Positions 3,343-21,656 of a DNA stretch of 22,172 bases are shown here, piece after piece; positions within the stretch are counted from its first letter, which is position 1, and each line of letters opens with the position of its first letter. This DNA comes from a virus: IMG/VR virus record IMGVR_UViG_3300025632_000092, positions 1 to 22,172 of that record; one strand, 5' to 3'. The notes beneath the pieces were generated by a model. That model ran no database searches, was not told the origin of the DNA, and saw only the letters and a list, made by a program, of their open reading frames with translations. The position numbers and the translations under genes were made by a program.

Positions 3343-3761
3343 TCCCTGTAAGTTGCCGTGTTAAACACGATCCCGAAAATGGGACGTATGGGGATTGTTT
3401 GCGGGCTGTTGTCGCGTCCATACTTGAAATTGAACCACCTGAAAACGTTCCCCATTTCTTTCATGACAATCCTGGTGGTGATGAAGGTCATGAACGTTTG
3501 CGTGAATTTCTTAAAACGCAAGGTCTTGTTCCGTTCATGACTTATTTCAGCGGCGATGACAGTTTAGAAAACGTTCTTCAAACACAACAGTCAATTAACC
3601 CTGATGTTCATTTTGCGCTTTTCTGTCAAAGTGAAACGGCTGATCATGTGGTTGTTTGCTGCAATGGTAAAGTTGTTCATAACCCGTCATGGGTTCAAGG
3701 CAGTGTGACCGGCCCGAATTCAAACGGGTATTGGGGCGTTATGGTGTTTGCGAAATGTTGA
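3339..3761 (+). CDS. Small papain-like-fold protein with Cys-His-Asn candidate triad
   Basis: 140 aa, starting within the ATGA overlap with the preceding stop. YGDCLRAVVASILEI puts Cys20 at the start of a helix, the arrangement of papain-like and C39-type peptidases. ADHVVVCCNGKVVHNPS supplies His103 and Asn115 in two following strands, so Cys20-His103-Asn115 would complete a triad. I recognise the 'GDCxRAxxASILE...VPHF...DHxVV...VVHxPS' pattern as a frequent uncharacterised phage protein family. It could be a peptidase, amidase or transglutaminase-like enzyme, or an inactive relative; the substrate is unknown. There is no signal peptide or membrane segment. Its place between replication genes argues for a cytoplasmic role rather than lysis. 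Confidence 0.6.
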   Translation: MIPVSCRVKHDPENGTYGDCLRAVVASILEIEPPENVPHFFHDNPGGDEGHERLREFLKTQGLVPFMTYFSGDDSLENVLQTQQSINPDVHFALFCQSETADHVVVCCNGKVVHNPSWVQGSVTGPNSNGYWGVMVFAKC

Positions 3762-4477
3762 TTAAAAACGGTAAATTTTGGCTTGGTGATTGTCTTGAAT
3801 TGATGAAAGACATTCCTGATGGTTCTGTTGATATGATTTTATGTGATTTACCCTATGGAACTACACGAAATAAATGGGACACTGTAATTCCGTTTGAGCC
3901 GTTGTGGGAACAATACTGGCGTGTTGCAAAACCAAATGCAGCAGTTGTTTTAACAGCACAAACACCTTTTGATAAACTACTTGGTTCATCGCAAATTCAA
4001 TTTTTAAAATATGAATGGGTTTGGAATAAAATGCGTGGAACAGGTCATTTAAACGCAAAAAAACAACCAATGAAATCACATGAAAATTGTTTAGTTTTTT
4101 ATCGCAAACAATGTTTTTACAACCCGCAAAAAACATTTGGTCATAGTAATTATGAAACAAGTGAAAATAGCGCGTCTGATAATTACAACAAGGTTGTAGG
4201 AACTAAAACCAAAAACACAGATGGTTCGCGTTATCCCGTCACAATTCAAGATTTCAAGATTAAGAAAAATCCCGAACACCCAACGCAAAAACCGGTTGGG
4301 TTGTTTGAATACCTGATCAAGACGTATACAAATGAAGGTGAAACCGTCCTGGATAATTGCGCCGGTTCAGGTACAACAGCCGTTGCTTGTGAGAACACAA
4401 ACCGCAAATGGATTTGCATTGAACAATTGCCTGAATATTATTATCCGGCGGTAATGCGGGTGGCATCATTACCATGA
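3755..4477 (+). CDS. Beta-class N6-adenine/N4-cytosine DNA methyltransferase
   Basis: 240 aa from ATG 3755, overlapping the previous stop by 7 bp; the longer in-frame start at 3689 would lie deep inside the upstream gene and is rejected. The catalytic DLPY motif (31-34) comes first. HPTQKP (175-180) and the AdoMet-binding VLDNCAGSGTT (198-208) follow near the C-terminus, the beta-class order of the N6_N4_Mtase family. The enzyme would transfer a methyl group from S-adenosylmethionine to an exocyclic amine in DNA. No partner restriction endonuclease is adjacent, so it is probably an orphan modification enzyme protecting phage DNA. The recognition site cannot be read from sequence. It overlaps the helicase gene by ATGA. 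Confidence 0.9.
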   Translation: MLIKNGKFWLGDCLELMKDIPDGSVDMILCDLPYGTTRNKWDTVIPFEPLWEQYWRVAKPNAAVVLTAQTPFDKLLGSSQIQFLKYEWVWNKMRGTGHLNAKKQPMKSHENCLVFYRKQCFYNPQKTFGHSNYETSENSASDNYNKVVGTKTKNTDGSRYPVTIQDFKIKKNPEHPTQKPVGLFEYLIKTYTNEGETVLDNCAGSGTTAVACENTNRKWICIEQLPEYYYPAVMRVASLP

Positions 4478-9405: not shown

Positions 9406-9567
9406 CGTTCATTTCCTTGTTTGTTGAATGTAGGTCTAAGTTATTCACAAACAGGCGTCAACAAGTTTTTTGCCAAAACGTGCCATTTTTCGGTTGCTTG
9501 ATCTGAGCACAAGATTTAGACAGATGGAACGCGCAAGCCGCTGATGATGACGCAAGGTATTGAAAAC
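9406..9567. promoter_or_regulatory. Divergent intergenic region with TACATTCAA motif
   Basis: 162 bp between divergent operons. On the minus strand TTGACG (9456-9461) and TACATTCAA (9424-9432) lie 19-56 bp ahead of ATG 9405. The same 9-mer recurs before two other minus operons at 14986 and 15709. On the plus strand TTGCTT, 17 bp, TAGACA is a weak candidate promoter for the HTH gene at 9568. The elements are read by eye. Confidence 0.45.
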
Positions 9568-9735
9568 ATGAAAAAAACCCTAAAATGCAAAGAAGTGGCA
9601 CAACATATAGGGGTTCCCTTGCGTACATTCTACCGCATGTTGGGTGATAAAAGATTTCCCGTTGATCCAATTCCGAACACTAAACCGCGACTATGGCAAA
9701 CCGCCGATGTTGACGCCTGGTTGGCGGGCGAATGA
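9568..9735 (+). CDS. AlpA/excisionase-like helix-turn-helix protein
   Basis: 55 aa from ATG 9568; the 8-residue upstream extension from 9544 has no ribosome site I can see. LKCKEVAQHIGVPLRTFYRML (residues 5-25) is a MerR-like helix-turn-helix. The following RFPVDPIPNTKPRLWQTADVDAWLAG has the wing and terminal helix of AlpA/HTH_17 proteins. Such proteins bind DNA as phage regulators or excisionases. No integrase is in view, so here it more likely controls the replication operon, whose primase-helicase gene it overlaps by 4 bp. Confidence 0.75.
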   Translation: MKKTLKCKEVAQHIGVPLRTFYRMLGDKRFPVDPIPNTKPRLWQTADVDAWLAGE

Positions 9736-12741: not shown

Positions 12742-13166
12742 TTTGCATGTTTCCAAAAACCAACACGGCTTTCTTGAAACATCATTTCAGTTGTTGCGAA
12801 ACTTTCCGCAAATCGTTCGGCAATTCCTGGTTCAGCTTCAAACGTATGCACACCGATAATACCGGCTTGAATTAGCGCACCACCGCAATTGCAACATGGC
12901 GGGTGTGTTACATATGCGGTGCAACCTTGAACACTAGTAGTTGCGTTGAAAATGGCGTTCGCTTCAGCGTGTTGAACCATCCTGTATTTCAACGGGCGGT
13001 TTTCATAGCGTTCAACCGTATCTTCAACACCGCGAGGAAAACCGTTGAAGCCCATCCCAACAACAACGCGGTTCGGATTGACGATCACGCAACCAACTTT
13101 TGTTGAAGGGTCTTTTGACCATTGCGCAACGTGAATTGCGAGCTCAAGAAATCGTCGATGGTTCAT
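12738..13166 (-). CDS. Deoxycytidylate (dCMP) deaminase
   Basis: 142 aa. HAEANAI (67-73) supplies the zinc ligand His67 and catalytic Glu69, and PPCCNC (89-94) supplies Cys91 and Cys94, the cytidine/deoxycytidylate deaminase signature. SKDPSTKVGCVIV and GFNGFPRGVED are typical of dCMP deaminases. It converts dCMP to dUMP, feeding thymidylate synthesis for phage DNA. No thymidylate synthase is in the window. Length is normal. It overlaps both neighbours by ATGA. Confidence 0.92.
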   Translation of the reverse strand: MNHRRFLELAIHVAQWSKDPSTKVGCVIVNPNRVVVGMGFNGFPRGVEDTVERYENRPLKYRMVQHAEANAIFNATTSVQGCTAYVTHPPCCNCGGALIQAGIIGVHTFEAEPGIAERFAESFATTEMMFQESRVGFWKHAK

Positions 13167-13771
13167 AGTTTTTCCAATACTAAAAAATAACTGTGATGGA
13201 TGCGAGCGTGTTTCGCTCTACCTTTTCTATTCGGTCTTGGCATTCTGTTTTTAGCCGGTAAAATAAACAAATCTTTCAATCTAAAACCAAATTGATTTGC
13301 CCAATTCACAACATTTAAATGTGTGCAATGCATTTTATGATTGTGAATAATATCCTGACATTTGAAAACAACAATTCCTTTTTTTTTCAAAATTCTTGAG
13401 AATTCTTTCAAAGAACCAATGTAGTGACTTTCAAGTTCATCATAACGCCAATATCCTGCAAATCTTTTTGCCATGATCATATTACCGTTTCCGTTGCGAT
13501 TTTTACGAACATATGTTAGAAACGGCGGATCAAAAACAACAGATTTTACACTTTCATTTTTCAAAGGTAAGTCTGTTGAAGATGCAAACTTACAATCTTT
13601 CAACGTCCAATCCATGTCGAACCTATGGACGGGTTTCTTCTTATCTTTATAGAATGAACCATTTCCAAAAGTTGCATCAACTTCAAAACCTTCAAGACAA
13701 TGAAGTTCTAAAATCCAATCCAATATTTCATGCTGATCATAACTTACAGATTTTGGGTTGAATTCATCCAT
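13163..13771 (-). CDS. Class I SAM-dependent (DNA) methyltransferase, DPPF type
   Basis: 202 aa from ATG 13771; ATG 13780 and TTG 13792 are longer alternatives. FEVDATFGNGSFY (29-41) is the AdoMet-binding motif I, followed by FDMDW (acidic residue ending strand 2) and VVFDPPFLTYV (79-89), whose DPPF is the motif IV of amino-methyltransferases. Motif I before motif IV differs from the 3755 methyltransferase, so the two are unrelated in domain order. The C-terminus is basic (RPNRKGRAKHARIHHSYF). DNA is the likely substrate, but no target-recognition domain is evident at this size; an RNA or protein substrate is not excluded. Overlaps dCMP deaminase by ATGA. Confidence 0.75.
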   Translation of the reverse strand: MDEFNPKSVSYDQHEILDWILELHCLEGFEVDATFGNGSFYKDKKKPVHRFDMDWTLKDCKFASSTDLPLKNESVKSVVFDPPFLTYVRKNRNGNGNMIMAKRFAGYWRYDELESHYIGSLKEFSRILKKKGIVVFKCQDIIHNHKMHCTHLNVVNWANQFGFRLKDLFILPAKNRMPRPNRKGRAKHARIHHSYFLVLEKL

Positions 13772-13814
13772 TGTCAACATTAAAACCCGCAAAGAAAGCT
13801 TGTTCAGGTTTCAT
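13764..13814 (-). CDS. Possible 16-codon leader ORF
   Basis: ATG 13814, just after the stop of the 170-aa gene, reads MKPEQAFFAGFNVDNG to TGA 13764-13766. That stop overlaps ATG 13771 of the methyltransferase (ATGGATGA). It may couple translation across the gap or be chance; there is no homology argument. Confidence 0.25.
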   Translation of the reverse strand: MKPEQAFFAGFNVDNG

Positions 13815-16070: not shown

Positions 16071-16103
16071 CAAAAATAAACCCGTCCAAATTAATGAACG
16101 GGC
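16071..16103 (-). terminator. Rho-independent terminator
   Basis: Read on the minus strand, CCCGT (16098-16102) and ACGGG (16081-16085) form a 5-bp GC-rich stem around a 12-base loop, followed directly by TTTATTTTTG. It lies 13 bp past the stop of the 16116-16370 gene and would end the minus-strand small-gene cluster. Confidence 0.65.
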
Positions 16104-16115
16104 GCAACTGCTATT

Positions 16116-16370
16116 TTAAAATAAATTGTCTGATCCTGGATTTCTTTGATCAATGGCGATTAATGCACCGCCTTTACCAGATGTTTGCCGAATGCACTTA
16201 CCGTTAAAAAATGCATCCCATGAACCGGCGTAGTTTTTACGGATTTCACCACCGTTATATTTTTCAGCCCGCCCATAATTCCCCGTTACGGTTTTAGGTG
16301 GGTCAAATACCCGTTCTTTAAATTCAGGCGGGTATCTGAAATCTGTTTCAAAGGTTAAATATTCAGCCAT
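16116..16370 (-). CDS. Small hypothetical protein
   Basis: 84 aa, starting in a TAATG overlap with the previous stop. The sequence is polar and aromatic (MAEYLTFETDFRYPPEFKER, NYAGSWDAFFNGKC), without a membrane segment or known motif. It is the last gene before the terminator and is transcribed with the 87-aa gene from repeated promoter A. Confidence 0.6.
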   Translation of the reverse strand: MAEYLTFETDFRYPPEFKERVFDPPKTVTGNYGRAEKYNGGEIRKNYAGSWDAFFNGKCIRQTSGKGGALIAIDQRNPGSDNLF

Positions 16371-16633
16371 TAAATCAAACCGAACAAAACCAAATCTTGT
16401 GTGATTTTCTTTGCGATTGTATCGCGCAAAATCTGATCAACTGGATTGATTGAACCCTGAAGTTCATGGTTCGCTTGAATTTCTTCAAGAACCGTCAAAT
16501 AAGCCGTTACAACGGTGTGATCAAGGTTTGCGTTTGTGTGGTTTGCGATCAAAGCCCGCGCACCAAGCATTGCTGCTTCACCATGTTCGTTGTTGTCTGT
16601 TGCTGTTTCGATTTTATTTACAAGGTTTGTCAT
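16370..16633 (-). CDS. Small hypothetical helical protein downstream of repeated promoter A
   Basis: 87 aa from ATG 16633 (MTNLVNKIETATDNNEHGEA). GGA lies about 9 nt upstream, inside the repeated leader. A longer in-frame start at 16699 would translate the promoter itself and is rejected. The protein is mostly helical (EAAMLGARALIANH, VVTAYLTVLEEIQANHEL, QILRDTIAKKITQDLVL). No family recognised. A dedicated strong promoter suggests an early or accessory role. Confidence 0.65.
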   Translation of the reverse strand: MTNLVNKIETATDNNEHGEAAMLGARALIANHTNANLDHTVVTAYLTVLEEIQANHELQGSINPVDQILRDTIAKKITQDLVLFGLI

Positions 16634-16713
16634 TGTTTCGTTCCATCTGTTTTGTTTCGTTGTCTTAGTTATAGCGATGGTTGTTGCGATGGTCAACAAC
16701 TAATTTAAAATAA
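16627..16713. repeat. Promoter-leader cassette, copy A (87 bp, identical to copy B)
   Basis: The 87 bp here are identical to 17069-17155. The copy runs from upstream of the -35 element through the leader into the start codon of the 87-aa gene. The 3' end of the neighbouring 76-aa gene lies inside it. Confidence 0.9.
16668..16696 (-). promoter_or_regulatory. Sigma70-type promoter A (TTGACC-17-TATAAC)
   Basis: Minus strand: TTGACC (16691-16696), 17-bp spacer, TATAAC (16668-16673). The spacer contains CCATCGC twice, 12 bp apart, counting the CC that ends the -35. It is about 35 bp ahead of ATG 16633. AT-rich DNA upstream of the -35 could act as an UP element. Confidence 0.85.
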
Positions 16714-16935
16714 ATGACCGCGTAAAAATTTAAGCGATCTTTGGCGGTAAATTTTACGGTTCCAAATAAGATGACGGTGATCACCTGGATTTTTTTTAGG
16801 AACAATTATCGCCAACGTCCGGTTGTGAAAATATTTACCAAACATTTCACCGCGATCTGATTTGATTTGTTTGATAACTTCAGCGCGTTGCAGAATTTTC
16901 AAACCTGCAACGCGCTTTACAGCAATTAACATCAC
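16705..16935 (-). CDS. Small basic hypothetical protein
   Basis: 76 aa; starts at GTG 16935 (GTGA overlap with the previous stop) or at the adjacent ATG 16932. It is highly basic (IAVKRVAGLKILQRAEVIKQ, HLIWNRKIYRQRSLKFLRGH), so nucleic-acid binding is possible. Its stop lies within repeat copy A. Expressed from promoter B together with the 47-aa gene. No family recognised. Confidence 0.55.
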   Translation of the reverse strand: MMLIAVKRVAGLKILQRAEVIKQIKSDRGEMFGKYFHNRTLAIIVPKKNPGDHRHLIWNRKIYRQRSLKFLRGHLF

Positions 16936-17075
16936 GCAACCTTGTTCATATAATTGATTGCAGCTTTTTCAGATTTGTAAGTTTTCCAGCAATCACCGTT
17001 GTTGTCGGTTACGAAATAAGTTGCTGATCCGTTGAATTCAACTTTGAAATCTTTGTTTGTTGCGATGATTGTCAT
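16932..17075 (-). CDS. 47-aa hypothetical protein downstream of repeated promoter B
   Basis: From ATG 17075 (MTIIATNKDFKVEFNGSATY) to TGA at 16932. The longer frame starting at 17141 would begin inside the -35 region and is rejected. Two or three beta strands (FKVEFNGSATYFVTD, GDCWKTYKSEK) are followed by a short helix (AAINYMNKVA), resembling small phage inhibitors of host enzymes only in size. Function unknown. Confidence 0.6.
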   Translation of the reverse strand: MTIIATNKDFKVEFNGSATYFVTDNNGDCWKTYKSEKAAINYMNKVA

Positions 17076-17155
17076 TGTTTCGTTCCATCTGTTTTGTTTC
17101 GTTGTCTTAGTTATAGCGATGGTTGTTGCGATGGTCAACAACTAATTTAAAATAA
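17069..17155. repeat. Promoter-leader cassette, copy B (87 bp)
   Basis: Identical over 87 bp to 16627-16713, including the start codon of the downstream gene. Copies C and D share the core but have diverged. The stop codon of the 93-aa gene (17147) lies inside the copy. Confidence 0.9.
17110..17138 (-). promoter_or_regulatory. Sigma70-type promoter B (TTGACC-17-TATAAC)
   Basis: Minus strand: TTGACC (17133-17138), 17-bp spacer with the CCATCGC direct repeat, TATAAC (17110-17115). It drives the 47-aa and 76-aa genes; no terminator separates it from the operon upstream. Confidence 0.85.
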
Positions 17156-17428
17156 TTTACCAGGATCAACACGCGGTAAATCTTTGGCGTCATTTCCGTT
17201 CAACGATCCGTTATCCCATTCAGGCAACGCCTGGACGCTGCAACAGGTGATGGGGTAGAAATGCCCGTGCGTGATCGTTAGGCGGGCCGGTGTGGCGTCA
17301 CACACCTGATCGTGGTGGGTGAAACAGTAACGCAACCGCGCCAACCGTGCGATCTGTTTTGAATATGGCCCTTCAACAACATGATCTTTAACACCGCGCC
17401 TGATGATCACATAATGATTGTCGGTCAC
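17147..17428 (-). CDS. Hypothetical protein, GC-rich gene
   Basis: 93 aa from GTG 17428, overlapping the previous stop by GTGA. It is rich in His, Arg and Cys (HYVIIRRGVKDHVVEG, YCFTHHDQVCD, CCSVQALPEWDNG). The nucleotide sequence is clearly more GC-rich than adjacent genes, suggesting a different origin. No family recognised; paired cysteines and histidines might bind metal. Confidence 0.55.
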   Translation of the reverse strand: MTDNHYVIIRRGVKDHVVEGPYSKQIARLARLRYCFTHHDQVCDATPARLTITHGHFYPITCCSVQALPEWDNGSLNGNDAKDLPRVDPGKLF

Positions 17429-17667
17429 GATCTAAACTTTCTCAATTGTTCATAGTAAGAAATTGCAATTTTCGGATCATGAAGTGGTGTTAAAGAATTT
17501 TTTCCATATGTACTGTTCATGATCATTTTCAAATATTGAACTTGATAAGAGTAAAGTTTTCCTTCAATTATTGCAGGTTTTACAGGTTTTACAGGCATTA
17601 ACAGACCTGGTGTTTTTACAACCAGAGGAGCAGCTAACAAACCTGTTAAAAATTCTCTACGTTTCAT
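17425..17667 (-). CDS. Small protein with twin-arginine (Tat) type signal sequence
   Basis: 80 aa from ATG 17667 with GAGGT upstream. MKRREFLTGLLAAPLVVKTP has the twin-arginine pattern R-R-x-F-L followed by a hydrophobic helix, so export by the host Tat pathway is predicted. The rest (IIEGKLYSYQVQYLKMIMNS, TPLHDPKIAISYYEQLRKF) is a short helical, Tyr-rich region. Short Tat-leader proteins occur in other phages in my memory, without known function. It overlaps its upstream neighbour by ATGA. Confidence 0.65.
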   Translation of the reverse strand: MKRREFLTGLLAAPLVVKTPGLLMPVKPVKPAIIEGKLYSYQVQYLKMIMNSTYGKNSLTPLHDPKIAISYYEQLRKFRS

Positions 17668-17837
17668 TTTTTACTTACCTCATTCATTTTCATCGGCAAC
17701 GTTGTTTGGATACTTGGGAAATCAACCATATAGGGGAACGGTAGTTTAAGGTTGATTGATTTCAGTGTTCCTTGATCACCTTTCTTTAAAGGTTGCATAT
17801 CTATCGTACATTTCACCACGTCACCAACTTCAATCAT
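17664..17837 (-). CDS. 57-aa hypothetical protein
   Basis: The frame runs ATG 17837 to TGA 17664-17666, with ATGA overlaps at both ends. It begins MIEVGDVVKCTIDMQPLKKG, continues through DQGTLKSINLKLPFPYMVDF and ends in a Lys-rich tail. The beta-rich N-terminus could be a small barrel. It overlaps the Tat-leader gene, implying co-translation. Unknown family. Confidence 0.6.
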   Translation of the reverse strand: MIEVGDVVKCTIDMQPLKKGDQGTLKSINLKLPFPYMVDFPSIQTTLPMKMNEVSKK

Positions 17838-17962
17838 GACGGATCACCAAAATTCATGATTTTGTCACACATCATAAAATGACCTTTCTTTGTTAAATCT
17901 ACATCTAGAACATATTTAAAATACATTATATTTTCGTAATCTGAAATCAATTTTTGAAACAT
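17834..17962 (-). CDS. 42-aa hypothetical protein
   Basis: ATG 17962 (MFQKLISDYENIMYFKYVLD) to TGA 17834-17836, which overlaps the next ATG. The upstream ribosome site is weak (AAGATGAA). A helix followed by strands, Met-rich near the end (HFMMCDKIMNFGD). It fills the gap between flanking genes in operon fashion. Unknown. Confidence 0.5.
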   Translation of the reverse strand: MFQKLISDYENIMYFKYVLDVDLTKKGHFMMCDKIMNFGDPS

Positions 17963-17968
17963 TTCATC

Positions 17969-18217
17969 TTATTCAATCCATTCTTGTTCATTGTCTTGAA
18001 CCGCAAAATCCGTACCAGGATCAACGCGGTAATTCATCCATGTAACTTGACCGGTTGCAACGGTTGTGCCAAATGCAGGGTCTTGGCAACGTATTACACC
18101 ACCAATTGCAAACAACACGTTAACAGCATCGGAAATCATTTCACGGCGCGTTAGTTGGTCACTTGATTGATCATGCACAACTGTTCCTGTTGTGGTTTGC
18201 GCTTGTACTGTAATCAT
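17969..18217 (-). CDS. Hypothetical protein
   Basis: 82 aa in an ATGA overlap with the upstream gene. A Thr-rich N-terminus (MITVQAQTTTGTVVHD) is followed by a probable helix (LTRREMISDAVNVLFAIGGV) and an acidic end (DPGTDFAVQDNEQEWIE). The hydrophobic stretch is too short for a confident membrane segment. Unknown family. Confidence 0.6.
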   Translation of the reverse strand: MITVQAQTTTGTVVHDQSSDQLTRREMISDAVNVLFAIGGVIRCQDPAFGTTVATGQVTWMNYRVDPGTDFAVQDNEQEWIE

Positions 18218-18489
18218 TTCTTTACCCTTTCAGCTTTTACGATTGCGATTTGATTGCGGCGTTCTTGTAAAAACCCAACCGTTGCATGTTCTAAATGCGG
18301 CGCAACCCAACTTTTACCTGTTGCGTTACCAGTTTGCCTAAATTGTTGCGGTGAACAATCTGTTACAACATTTCCATTTTTATGTTTTTTAATCACTTTG
18401 CAAACAGTGCTGAAAGCAAGCGGATTGTTTGAATATGAATGTGGAATGTGAAGGACTTTATCACCAACTTTGAATTCTTTAGACATCAC
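18214..18489 (-). CDS. Hypothetical protein with KOW/SH3-like beta pattern
   Basis: 91 aa; starts at GTG 18489 (GTGA overlap) or ATG 18486, with AAGGA upstream of both. SKEFKVGDKVLHIPHS, CKVIKKHKNGNVVTD and a C-terminal basic helix (RRNQIAIVKAERVKK) resemble the small beta-barrel 'KxGDxV' pattern of SH3/KOW-type domains. The fold is a guess and no function can be named. Confidence 0.6.
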   Translation of the reverse strand: MMSKEFKVGDKVLHIPHSYSNNPLAFSTVCKVIKKHKNGNVVTDCSPQQFRQTGNATGKSWVAPHLEHATVGFLQERRNQIAIVKAERVKK

Positions 18490-18932
18490 TCGGCTTCCTT
18501 AAAGAGTTTCAACAAATCTTGAACCTTTTCAGGTGTGCAAAATTTATCACCGTTTTTCATTGTCACAACTGTTCCGGTTGTAGAGTATTTCCCGTGGTTT
18601 ACAGTTTGACTTGATGCAACATGTGATATTTCATCAATGTTTATGATTGCCGTTTCCTCACGCCAAAAATTATCACCCCTACCAGTGTGTGGGTAAAATT
18701 TAATTGAAATAATCATCAAACTTGCCAATTCTGCAAAAAGTTCATCAAGTGTTAATTCATCATCTGAAGCGTAAGTTTTAACACCTTTGCTTTCAAGAAA
18801 TTTTTCTTCATTTGCAATTTCACGTTCAATACCTTGAATATAAGTATTCATTGCAGGGTTGTGACCGTGACGTTCTTTTTCGTTTGAAAGACGTGTTGTC
18901 AAAGCGATAAGGTGATCTGTGTTGTAGGTCAT
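18486..18932 (-). CDS. Hypothetical protein, first gene behind repeated promoter C
   Basis: 148 aa from ATG 18932 (MTYNTDHLIALTTRL), chosen because GGA falls at the same distance as in cassettes A and B; ATG 18944 and 18938 are in frame and possible. The N-terminal ~50 residues (TTRLSNEKERHG, IQGIEREIANEEKFLE) form an anti-parallel helical pair seen in other phage proteins. The C-terminal half (ETAIINIDEISHVAS, GTVVTMKNGDKFCTPEKVQDLL) is beta-rich. No known function. Heads a seven-gene operon. Confidence 0.65.
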   Translation of the reverse strand: MTYNTDHLIALTTRLSNEKERHGHNPAMNTYIQGIEREIANEEKFLESKGVKTYASDDELTLDELFAELASLMIISIKFYPHTGRGDNFWREETAIINIDEISHVASSQTVNHGKYSTTGTVVTMKNGDKFCTPEKVQDLLKLFKEAE

Positions 18933-18959
18933 TGTCATATCCATTTAGTTGCTGTCTTA

Positions 18960-18988
18960 GTTATAGCAATGGTCGTTGCGATGGTCAA
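18960..18988 (-). promoter_or_regulatory. Sigma70-type promoter C (TTGACC-17-TATAAC)
   Basis: Minus strand: TTGACC (18983-18988), 17-bp spacer, TATAAC (18960-18965). The leader has diverged from copies A and B, and the second CCATCGC is CCATTGC. It drives the operon 18932 to 17147. Confidence 0.85.
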
Positions 18989-19020
18989 GAACTATTTTAG
19001 AATATTGCCTAATTAATTTA

Positions 19021-19040
19021 ATCACACTATATGTAGTGAT
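19021..19040. promoter_or_regulatory. Short palindrome just ahead of terS
   Basis: CACTA (19025-19029) and TAGTG (19034-19038) flank TATG, one base from the terS ATG region. TTGCCT, 17 bp, TATATG overlaps it as a weak plus-strand promoter. Either an operator over the terS start or chance. Confidence 0.35.
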
Positions 19041-19041
19041 C

Positions 19042-19635
19042 ATGAACCAGATTGTAGAATTCTCAAGCGCATATCGCCAATTACGCCCGTCCGAACGCAC
19101 GTTTGTTGATGGTTATGTAAGCGATCTTGAGACTAAAGCGGTTCGCACCGGTGAAAAACTTCACATGTTGTTAGCGCGCCCGATTGAAGTTGATGATCGT
19201 TCAGGTGAATATTTAGGGCTTTCCCTGGTTCGTGCTGCAATTGCTGAACGGGTGCGTGAACTTCAAGAGGAAATGGAACTGAGCGTTTATAAGACGCTTA
19301 AAGAATTGCGATCTTTGGCATATTCCAACATCGGAAATTACATGGAAATTGGTGAAGATGGTCAACCGTATTTTGATCTTGCCCGTTGTACGCCTGAACA
19401 GCTTGCAGCGGTTAAATCAATTGAGATTGAAGAACGCCCTAATATGTCGCGTAAGTTTAAATTCGTCTTGCATGATAAGGTCGCCGCGCTTGATAAAACA
19501 ATGAAATACCAGGGCTTGCTTGATGATGATCATTGGCGTTCTGAAAATGCAAAAACGGTCAAGGCCGAAACCCTAACCGCTGATGCAACTGATGATGAAG
19601 CGGCGGATTTGTACGCCCGTATGATCAATGGTTGA
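19042..19635 (+). CDS. terS: Terminase small subunit
   Basis: 197 aa from ATG 19042; the 22-residue extension from 18976 is rejected as it reads through intergenic DNA. No strong Shine-Dalgarno is visible. RPSERTFVDGYVSDLE (15-30) is the N-terminal DNA-binding helix region, and ELSVYKTLKELRSLAYSNIG, DGQPYFDLARCTPEQLAAVK and KFVLHDKVAALDKTMKYQGL follow the Terminase_2/TerS pattern. The subunit recognises phage DNA and recruits the large subunit for headful or cos cutting. The gene is directly followed by terL on the same strand, with a small opposing gene in the gap. Confidence 0.85.
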   Translation: MNQIVEFSSAYRQLRPSERTFVDGYVSDLETKAVRTGEKLHMLLARPIEVDDRSGEYLGLSLVRAAIAERVRELQEEMELSVYKTLKELRSLAYSNIGNYMEIGEDGQPYFDLARCTPEQLAAVKSIEIEERPNMSRKFKFVLHDKVAALDKTMKYQGLLDDDHWRSENAKTVKAETLTADATDDEAADLYARMING

Positions 19636-19834
19636 TCTTATACTGCTTTGCAAGAAACTCTTTGGTTTCATAGCCAAAAATGCCATCATTCATCGGATGA
19701 TTTGGGTTGCCGGTGTCGAGCATGTGAACGGGTGTGTTGTTCAATTCTCTAACGGCGTCATCGTGACCAAGTTTCGCAGCTTTCAAAGCTTCTTTGCTTT
19801 CAAAAACCGATTGTGCAACCGTTCGTTTAACCAT
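19625..19834 (-). CDS. 69-aa hypothetical protein, inserted between terS and terL
   Basis: From ATG 19834 (MVKRTVAQSVFESKEALKAA) behind the repeated leader of promoter D; the longer start at 19897 lies in the promoter and is rejected. The N-terminal half is a charged helix (ESKEALKAAKLGHDDAVREL), the C-terminal half a polar turn-rich region ending KEFLAKQYKINH. The stop overlaps the end of terS by 11 bp on the opposite strand. It reads antisense to the packaging genes. Unknown function; probably a gained accessory (moron-like) gene. Confidence 0.6.
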   Translation of the reverse strand: MVKRTVAQSVFESKEALKAAKLGHDDAVRELNNTPVHMLDTGNPNHPMNDGIFGYETKEFLAKQYKINH

Positions 19835-19868
19835 TGTTTTATTCCATCTGTTTTGTTTCGTTGTCTTA

Positions 19869-19897
19869 GTTATAGCGATGGTGTGTGTCATGGTCAA
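19869..19897 (-). promoter_or_regulatory. Sigma70-type promoter D (TTGACC-17-TATAAC), overlapping terL start
   Basis: Minus strand: TTGACC (19892-19897), 17-bp spacer, TATAAC (19869-19874). The leader 19842-19882 is identical to that of copies A and B; the spacer half next to the -35 differs. The -35 sits on the terL start codon (ATG 19890-19892, plus strand). Confidence 0.85.
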
Positions 19898-21656
19898 TAG
19901 TTATTTTACAGATAATGCATCGTTGATTGGTTGGCGTGATCATGCTGATAACGTTGTTGAACTTGTTCAGCCCTGGAAACCTGAACCGCTTGATCATGAA
20001 CAATGGCCACCTGATTATAAAGCTGTTTACGCATGGCGCATGAAACAGTTGCAAATTTTGCGTTCTGATCCTGCAATTCTTAAATCTGCAAAGGCTTATT
20101 ATTCATCACGTCCTAAAGAATTCATCATGCATTGGATGGATACTTATAACCCGCGCAAGAAATCGGGAAAATGGATGCCGTTTGTGTTCTTTGCGCGGCA
20201 AGCTGAATTCATTGATTTTTTAGATGATTTGCGCAATGCTGGTGAAAGCGGGCTTGTTGAAAAGTGTCGTGATGCCGGTGCAACGTGGCTTTCATGTGGT
20301 TATTCTATTCATTCATTTATCTTTATTGATGATGACGCTATTGGTTGGGGTTCTCGCAAACAAGACTTGGTTGATAAACTTGGCGATCCTGATAGTATTT
20401 TTGAAAAGATGCGTCTTATTCTGAAGCGTTTACCGGACGTTTTTCAGCCAAATTATGATGCAAATTTCATGCGTATCGTGAACCATGACAACGGTTCAAT
20501 CATCGGTGGTGAAGCTGGTGACAACATCGGGCGCGGTGGTCGTAAATCAATGTATTTCAAAGATGAAAGCGCCCATTATGAACGCGCTGAAAAGATTGAA
20601 AGCGCGTTAGGTGACAACACCAATTGCCAAGTTGATATTTCAAGCGTTAACGGTTTGGGCAATGTGTTCCATAGGCGGCGTGAAGCTGGTGTTGATTGGC
20701 AACCAGGGAAACCGATTGCTGAAGGTTACACGCAAGTTTTCGTTATTGATTGGCGTGATCATCCTGAAAAAACGCAAAAATGGTACGATGACCGTAAAGC
20801 GAAATATGAACGTGAAGGTATGCTTCATATTTTTGCGCAAGAGGTTGACCGTAATTATAGCGCCGCTGTTCAAAACACAATCATTCCTTATGAATGGATT
20901 GTTAACTGCATTGATGCACATAAAAAAATCAGATGGAAAGATGAACACGGTGTTATTCAGACCGGTCTGACAGATGAACAGATTGGTAATAACTATCTCG
21001 CCGGTCTTGATGTTGCTGATGAAGGTATTGACCGCAACGCCCGTTCGTTGCGGCAAGGCATTGTTTGGCGTGATGTTGAAGAATGGGGTGAACGTGATGT
21101 TGGCGATACAACACGCAAGATGATTGCAGGTTGTCGCGATTATAAAGGTATTCGGGTTCAGTATGATGTTATTGGCATTGGTTCAGGTGTTAAATCTGAA
21201 TTCAATCGCTTATTGTCTGAAAACATTATTACACGCGGTATCATCAATCTTGTTCCTTGGAATGCCGGTTCTGGTGTTGTTAATCCATTTGATCACGTTA
21301 TTCCTGATGATGATGAAAGCCCGATGAACAAAGATTTATTCGGAAACATGAAAGCGCAAGCTTGGTGGTCAATTCGTGCAAGATTTTACAAGACGTTTAA
21401 GAACATCACAAAAGGCGTTCTTTACCCTGTTGATGAACTCATTAGTCTTGACAGTACCATGAAATTATTGCACCAACTGATGAAAGAACTTGCGCAACCA
21501 ACACGCGGCGAAAATGGATCATTGCGAACCATCGTGAATAAGAAACCGCAAGGAATGAAAAGCCCGAACTTAGCTGATGCGGGAATTATGATGTACTTTC
21601 CTATTGAGGATAATCACGGCCATGCAGTTAGTGGAAATTATGGCGGCTCAGGTTAA
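19890..21656 (+). CDS. terL: Terminase large subunit (ATPase-nuclease)
   Basis: 588 aa from ATG 19890 (MVNSYFTDNASLIGW); ATG 19878 would add four residues, and a frame opening at 19794 would translate the antisense promoter and is rejected. ATPase motifs: LVEKCRDAGATWLS (122-135; Walker A-like, with Cys where Ser is usual), MYFKDESAH (221-229; Walker B, D225/E226) and DISSVNGLGN (249-258; coupling motif). Nuclease: YLAGLDVADEG (D374), IRVQYDVIGIG (D426) and SPNLADAG near the C-terminus supply the RNase H-like acidic cluster. It powers DNA translocation into the procapsid and cuts concatemers. No clear Shine-Dalgarno is seen; it may be translated by coupling. Confidence 0.92.
   Translation: MVNSYFTDNASLIGWRDHADNVVELVQPWKPEPLDHEQWPPDYKAVYAWRMKQLQILRSDPAILKSAKAYYSSRPKEFIMHWMDTYNPRKKSGKWMPFVFFARQAEFIDFLDDLRNAGESGLVEKCRDAGATWLSCGYSIHSFIFIDDDAIGWGSRKQDLVDKLGDPDSIFEKMRLILKRLPDVFQPNYDANFMRIVNHDNGSIIGGEAGDNIGRGGRKSMYFKDESAHYERAEKIESALGDNTNCQVDISSVNGLGNVFHRRREAGVDWQPGKPIAEGYTQVFVIDWRDHPEKTQKWYDDRKAKYEREGMLHIFAQEVDRNYSAAVQNTIIPYEWIVNCIDAHKKIRWKDEHGVIQTGLTDEQIGNNYLAGLDVADEGIDRNARSLRQGIVWRDVEEWGERDVGDTTRKMIAGCRDYKGIRVQYDVIGIGSGVKSEFNRLLSENIITRGIINLVPWNAGSGVVNPFDHVIPDDDESPMNKDLFGNMKAQAWWSIRARFYKTFKNITKGVLYPVDELISLDSTMKLLHQLMKELAQPTRGENGSLRTIVNKKPQGMKSPNLADAGIMMYFPIEDNHGHAVSGNYGGSG

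Follow-up and report, generated by a model that had tools for sequence, protein, structure and literature searches.

Dispersed sigma70-type promoters as likely boundaries for the gain and loss of small accessory genes in a 9NA/Rigallicvirus-like siphovirus

A linear 22,172-bp record of a tailed phage (IMG/VR record IMGVR_UViG_3300025632_000092; the window, meaning this whole stretch) carries on its minus strand four copies of a promoter-leader repeat, each followed by between one and seven small genes, as a preliminary description had claimed; the numbers are two for copy A, two for B, seven for C and one for D. We consider it likely that dispersed early promoters of this kind, of the host sigma70 type, serve as homologous boundaries for the modular gain and loss of accessory genes. 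The argument draws on the copies themselves, their strand bias and downstream open reading frames (ORFs), a ladder of units before the terminase small-subunit gene (terS), the change of gene within a slot and the constraint on the promoter spacer.

Four minus-strand sites between 16668 and 19897 match TTGACC, a 17-bp spacer and TATAAC exactly, and an 87-bp stretch of copy A recurs in copy B without a single difference (16627-16713 equals 17069-17155), both as first described. The core is also kept in C and D and the leader in D, while the leader of C is shorter and diverged.

16668..16696, minus strand: promoter core of copy A (TTGACCATCGCAACAACCATCGCTATAAC), exact match, conserved in relatives
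16627..16713, minus strand: 87-bp stretch of copy A (A+T-rich upstream element, core, leader and first codons), identical in B
17110..17138, minus strand: promoter core of copy B, exact match, identical to A
17069..17155, minus strand: 87-bp stretch of copy B, identical in A
18960..18988, minus strand: promoter core of copy C (TTGACCATCGCAACGACCATTGCTATAAC), exact match, with a short leader
19869..19897, minus strand: promoter core of copy D (TTGACCATGACACACACCATCGCTATAAC), exact match, overlapping the probable start of the terminase large-subunit gene (terL)

This 102-nt family is the top repeat of the window, the other copies being 94, 63 and 73% identical to A. By our own arithmetic, base composition predicts about 0.004 exact TTGACC-17-TATAAC sites, and backward-read controls contained no exact core site. 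When promoter-like sites were clustered blindly by spacer similarity, the four copies formed a cluster of 4 and controls formed none. A general promoter scan was uninformative on its own (54 sites against 47 expected).

The family extends well beyond the window. The region of about 3.3 kb proposed earlier holds all four copies of the window, but it was too narrow, since two further minus-strand copies lie among capsid genes of the contig L006, whose overlap with the window end is 127 bp long and free of mismatches. Each precedes one small gene; one lies between scaffold-like and major capsid genes and the other between two later virion genes. Because L006 comes from another assembly, it represents the same or a nearly identical phage and is not proven to form a single molecule with the window. 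For the window-like contig L005, identity is 99.7% across 4.7 kb. The search of related phages for the promoter core, proposed earlier as a check, found matches at ≤3 mismatches in 11 of 24 related records, with up to 5 per record and none in their backward-read control. A profile search recovered 8 copies in the relative G002, and each of the related metagenomic phages, with TerL identities of 64-81%, has between 1 and 8 copies. All 53 copies detected in window-type phages lie on the strand opposite terL, and 49 of the 53 are followed at 20-60 nt by a Shine-Dalgarno-like motif and an ATG ORF of at least 40 amino acids, compared with 5% of random same-strand positions; the 53 include near-duplicate contigs, and the distinct copies number 36. 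Among about 85,000 genomes, the core gave 3 scattered matches in unrelated bacteria, which is chance level, and no prophage match, so that a host or prophage origin of the core was rejected.

Instead of promoters, the repeats might be iterons for replication, packaging sites or the ends of mobile elements, but this is very improbable. Such a role would suit dispersed, near-identical repeats in mobile units, but not their fixed position 20-60 nt before a ribosome-binding site and ATG, their uniform strand and their sigma70-like hexamers, and no transposase or inverted ends were seen. Assignment of the copies to predicted sigma70-type promoters is well supported by their sequence. The published promoter consensus of S. 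meliloti is CTTGAC-N17-CTATAT (PMC2573895), and the window family has the hexamers and spacing of this alphaproteobacterial type. In relatives the -10 hexamer varies (TATAAC, TATGTT, TAAGAT, TATTCT, TAAATT and others), with TA at -12/-11 in 35-36 of the 36 distinct copies (partly forced by the search pattern) and mostly T or C at -7, a retention that fits a working sigma70 -10 element.

Conservation of the 17-bp spacer and of the upstream A exceeds what neutral change would leave. Mean spacer identity between the window and G002 or G011 is 0.68-0.69 (best pairs 82-88%), as against 55% (G002) and 40% (G011) at fourfold-degenerate sites of terL, and 35% and 25%, respectively, in the flank from -30 to -13. 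Because the search pattern fixes the TTGAC and CA.CGCTA columns and inflates their conservation, the constraint argument rests on columns 6-16, 20 and 26-29 and on the A at -5; the conserved positions free of the pattern are columns 7-13 (ATCGCAA) and an invariant A five bases before the -35 hexamer. Most copies contain a direct repeat of YCATCGC at a 12-bp spacing (CCATCGC-N5-YCATCGC). The G001 cores at 20001 and 22306 (L042) have an extra or a missing 12-bp unit, which suggests slippage within the spacer.

Two accounts of the spacer bear on these observations. According to the first, it is an operator at which a phage DNA-binding protein, bound to the 12-bp-spaced YCATCGC half-sites, would switch all early units off or on together, with a specificity that changes by lineage in the manner of immunity types. 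This would add a regulator to the boundary mechanism and is conceivable, though we lean against it. It agrees with the excess of spacer conservation over terL fourfold sites and the direct repeat in most copies, with the different yet equally constant spacers of other lineages (HMSP1-Susan combining its spacer with unrelated flanks), and with a helix-turn-helix (HTH) gene in the window at 9544-9732. However, no protein has been linked to the spacer site, G007 and G008 no longer have the first half-site, and gene conversion could equally homogenise spacers inside a genome. The HTH gene (plus strand) encodes a small HTH_17/excisionase-like protein directly before the primase gene, its counterpart P106B_70 occupies that place in P106B, and it is a candidate regulator. 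The second account, which appears somewhat less probable still, treats the copies as plain recent duplications kept alike by gene conversion, the spacer having no role of its own. Copies are indeed more alike within than between genomes, as the 87 identical bp of A and B illustrate. Against this, the spacer stays alike across phages with strongly diverged terL fourfold sites and unrelated cassette genes, and the flanks from -30 to -13 are not conserved.

The description of the cassettes as modular and expanding is borne out in relatives, in which the repeat marks the boundaries of units that have been gained, lost or relocated. Read in the promoter sense, the region before terS holds one unit in G003 and the identical G001 (gene MKAETQ...), two in G004, G005 and G006 (MTNL... 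then MKAETQ...) and three in G013 (MTNL..., MNVL... and MKAETQ...). More than one independent assembly shows the one-unit form and likewise the two-unit form, which speaks against an assembly artefact; a single contig (G013) has the three-unit form. Pairwise alignments change partner within the 50-60-bp promoter-leader repeat, in a few events. Between the L006 4176 and 4874 homologues lies a slot that holds F1 in the window phage, a D1 homologue in G001/G003 and a third gene in G004/G012; the D1 homologue is 76% identical to D1 of the window, which follows a promoter of this kind too but occupies another slot. In this capsid-region slot, G001 and G004 agree at about 95% of positions as far as the -10 hexamer and continue into unrelated genes. 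Before the capsid gene, G004 has three units and G001 one, whose flank matches the first of the three and whose gene matches the last. Homologous recombination would account for these movements.

The window copies would thus belong to a genome-wide family of phage-specific promoters of the host sigma70 type. A unit would comprise an A+T-rich upstream element, TTGACC, the constrained 17-bp spacer, TATAAC, a short leader, rich in A, that contains a ribosome-binding site, and at least one small accessory gene. Host RNA polymerase would read the units early, on the strand opposite the late structural genes, from promoters that may be strong, and the genes may benefit the phage. Few terminators separate the units, so promoters further upstream probably contribute to the transcription of downstream units. 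Its repetition would make the promoter-leader a homologous boundary. Copies in one phage, or in relatives that infect a cell together, could recombine there, and a ready-to-express gene would be added, deleted or moved with transcription left unbroken. The lineage-specific constrained spacer would most simply be the binding site of a phage regulator governing all copies jointly, which is the weak step of the scheme.

Besides the pattern-fixed columns, several points weigh against this mechanism. Some cores are diverged or altered; G001 22306 appears to have lost one 12-bp repeat unit, and G011 35591 and 35971 lack a convincing gene. Start sites, timing and strength of the promoters are predictions, and the direction and mechanism of recombination are deduced from a few contigs.

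Other phage lineages carry analogous sets. P106B and RHph_X2_24 have their own (TTGACGCACAATNAGAAACG...), with about four clear copies each that precede annotated small genes, some between late genes. HMSP1-Susan has at least 5 copies of TTGACAAATAAACCGCAATGTTCCATAAG with unrelated upstream flanks, and a shared upstream element was looked for there and not found. Several copies of TTGACGGATTACAGAC... occur in Sasha and about nine of AAAATAATTCTTGACGGATTRCA in 9NA, many of them before leftward small-gene groups; clustering in Sasha came close to its control, so the Sasha case rests on visible long similarity. A repeated set was looked for and not found in G018 (TerL 47%). In RHph_X2_24, the gene adjoining terL (L009 32589-33188) is annotated 'postulated decoy of host sigma factor' (Srd), a noteworthy annotation beside sigma70-type cassettes.

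Another reading takes the element as two divergent promoters, one directed leftward at the small genes and the other, on the opposite strand, rightward at the late gene next to it. In copy C, the putative rightward half would be:

18976..19003, plus strand: possible divergent promoter toward terS (TTGCGA-16-TAGAAT), hypothetical, with the same half in A and B and a resemblance to Sasha/9NA plus-strand sites

Copies A, B and C have TTGCGA-16-TAAAAT/TAGAAT on their plus strand, and Sasha/9NA carry TTGCAAT..GTCAAGAATTATTTTAAACT at the matching place before rightward genes. The upstream AAAATARTTC-TTGAC is common to the window family, 9NA and Sasha; AAAATARTTC in the latter two matches the window family well, ranking in the top 1-8% of those genomes' TTGAC sites. 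Copy D, G002 and several further copies nevertheless lack the rightward half or have a poor one, and no rightward gene adjoins A or B, which makes a divergent pair unlikely. A broader proposal is that a dispersed early regulon is ancestral to the 9NA-like siphoviruses that infect alpha- and gammaproteobacteria. The spacer of each lineage would be an 'address' for a phage regulator, cassettes would be exchanged only between phages whose addresses agree, and addresses would be replaced over time much as immunity types are. We regard this as doubtful.

The genes of the cassettes and the neighbouring late genes are as follows.

16370..16633, minus strand: A1, 87 amino acids (aa), cassette A gene 1; no PHROG match, sub-threshold Pfam match only
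16116..16370, minus strand: A2, 84 aa, cassette A gene 2; no family, a relative in G007
16080..16103, minus strand: intrinsic terminator-like hairpin past the last cassette gene
16932..17075, minus strand: B1, 47 aa, cassette B gene 1
16705..16935, minus strand: B2, 76 aa, GTG start, cassette B gene 2
18486..18944, minus strand: C1, 152 aa, or 148 aa with a start at 18932 (an ATG homologous to that of A/B); no informative family
17147..18489, minus strand: C2-C7, six small genes of the copy C unit (18214-18489, 17969-18217, 17834-17962, 17664-17837, 17425-17667 and 17147-17428)
19625..19834, minus strand: D1, 69 aa, sole gene of cassette D, between terS and terL
19042..19635, plus strand: terS, late gene on the strand opposite the cassettes
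19890..21656, plus strand: terL, late gene on the strand opposite the cassettes

The window cassettes contain one convincing terminator-like site. Their genes gave no informative Pfam or PHROG match, and nearly all are without known relatives. C3, C5 and C7 have relatives among related phages, and A1 homologues (about 50% identical) sit under the same promoter in G004, G005, G006 and G013. Ten cassette genes from relatives likewise gave no informative Pfam or PHROG match, G002 27994 having a sub-threshold match to ribosome modulation factor only. The reverse complement of the copy D -35 (ATGGTCAA) provides a candidate terL start codon, and G002 27994 shows the same context.

The window also encodes an SSB/annealing protein, an exonuclease, two DNA methyltransferases, a helicase, the HTH gene, a primase, a dCMP deaminase and both terminase subunits, and the portal gene begins at its end. 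The SSB-like gene contains an 18-bp tandem repeat (CGGCTGTTGCTGCATGGG) at 1-120, and the gene at 1854-2609 an 87-bp-spaced repeat at 2114-2259. The closest named relatives of its TerL are those of Rhizobium phages P106B and RHph_X2_24 (60-62%; P106B 62%), followed by HMSP1-Susan (49%) and the Salmonella 9NA/Sasha group (41-42%). TerL and replication-gene similarity, with exonuclease, SSB, helicase and primase genes present, place the phage with the 9NA/Rigallicvirus-like siphoviruses. Promoter type, nearest phages and the near-absence of GANTC indicate that its hosts are probably alphaproteobacteria. GANTC, the CcrM methylation site of alphaproteobacteria, occurs once in the window against 68-82 expected and is the most depleted of the 16 NNxNN palindromes; this genome with almost no GANTC carries two DNA methyltransferase genes (3689-4474, plus strand; 13166-13792, minus strand). 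Counts are similarly low in P106B (0 of about 200), G001 (3 of 155) and RHph_X2_24 (4 of 190), and GANTC is nearly absent in G002 and G011; HMSP1-Susan and G018 are less strongly depleted, and G019 is not depleted.

Judged by analogy, the cassettes seem closest to the promoter early stem-loop (PeSL) cassettes of T4-type phages, minus the stem-loop. PeSL cassettes were reportedly described by Arbiol et al. in 2010 and Comeau et al. in 2014. As far as they are presented in a citing paper (PMC4503421), they are mobile regulatory cassettes with early-type promoters repeated among many small unknown genes and tied to modular shuffling. The window family has a repeated sigma70-type promoter before small variable genes and gene-shuffling breakpoints at the repeats (few events), and it generally lacks a stem-loop or terminator within the repeat. 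A stem-loop as a repeat component was rejected, as folding of the 65 nt before the copies was in general no better than that of shuffled sequence; unlike most copies, G011 24339 has a clear terminator hairpin. The window family is therefore not classed as PeSL, and it differs further in consisting of a promoter plus leader with a constant lineage-specific spacer, in a siphovirus of the 9NA/Rigallicvirus sort. Morons of lambdoid phages are extra genes with their own promoter among late genes, and usually they have their own terminator and are expressed in lysogens. The window units resemble them as additional genes with a promoter set among late genes, but share a repeated promoter, have one terminator-like site and show no sign of lysogeny in the fragment. 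In the haloarchaeal virus HGTV-1, a conserved promoter-like motif precedes most genes of one genome arm (PMC3950731); that motif is an archaeal TATA-box with an inverted repeat, whereas the window family has no inverted repeat. In 9NA, small novel genes are interspersed among virion genes (PMC4153490), and 9NA-like phages (Nonanavirus, Sashavirus) and Rigallicvirus are similar to the window phage in gene content and likewise have many small genes among virion genes and repeated promoter sets of their own, with spacer sequences that are not those of the window family. The open-access literature yielded no published account of the window set or of the 9NA-like/Rigallicvirus promoter sets. The remark that no such set was known accordingly holds at the sequence level, while the kind is known from PeSL (PMC4503421) and from the small-gene layout of 9NA (PMC4153490).

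These observations suggest a possible, testable route by which lytic siphoviruses may gain or lose small accessory genes among essential late genes, with the shared promoter-leader perhaps being both expression signal and recombination boundary. Culturable carriers of analogous sets include HMSP1-Susan (S. meliloti) and 9NA (Salmonella). The promoter of a lineage also offers a search handle, since scanning for it finds accessory genes, including candidates for host take-over or counter-defence.

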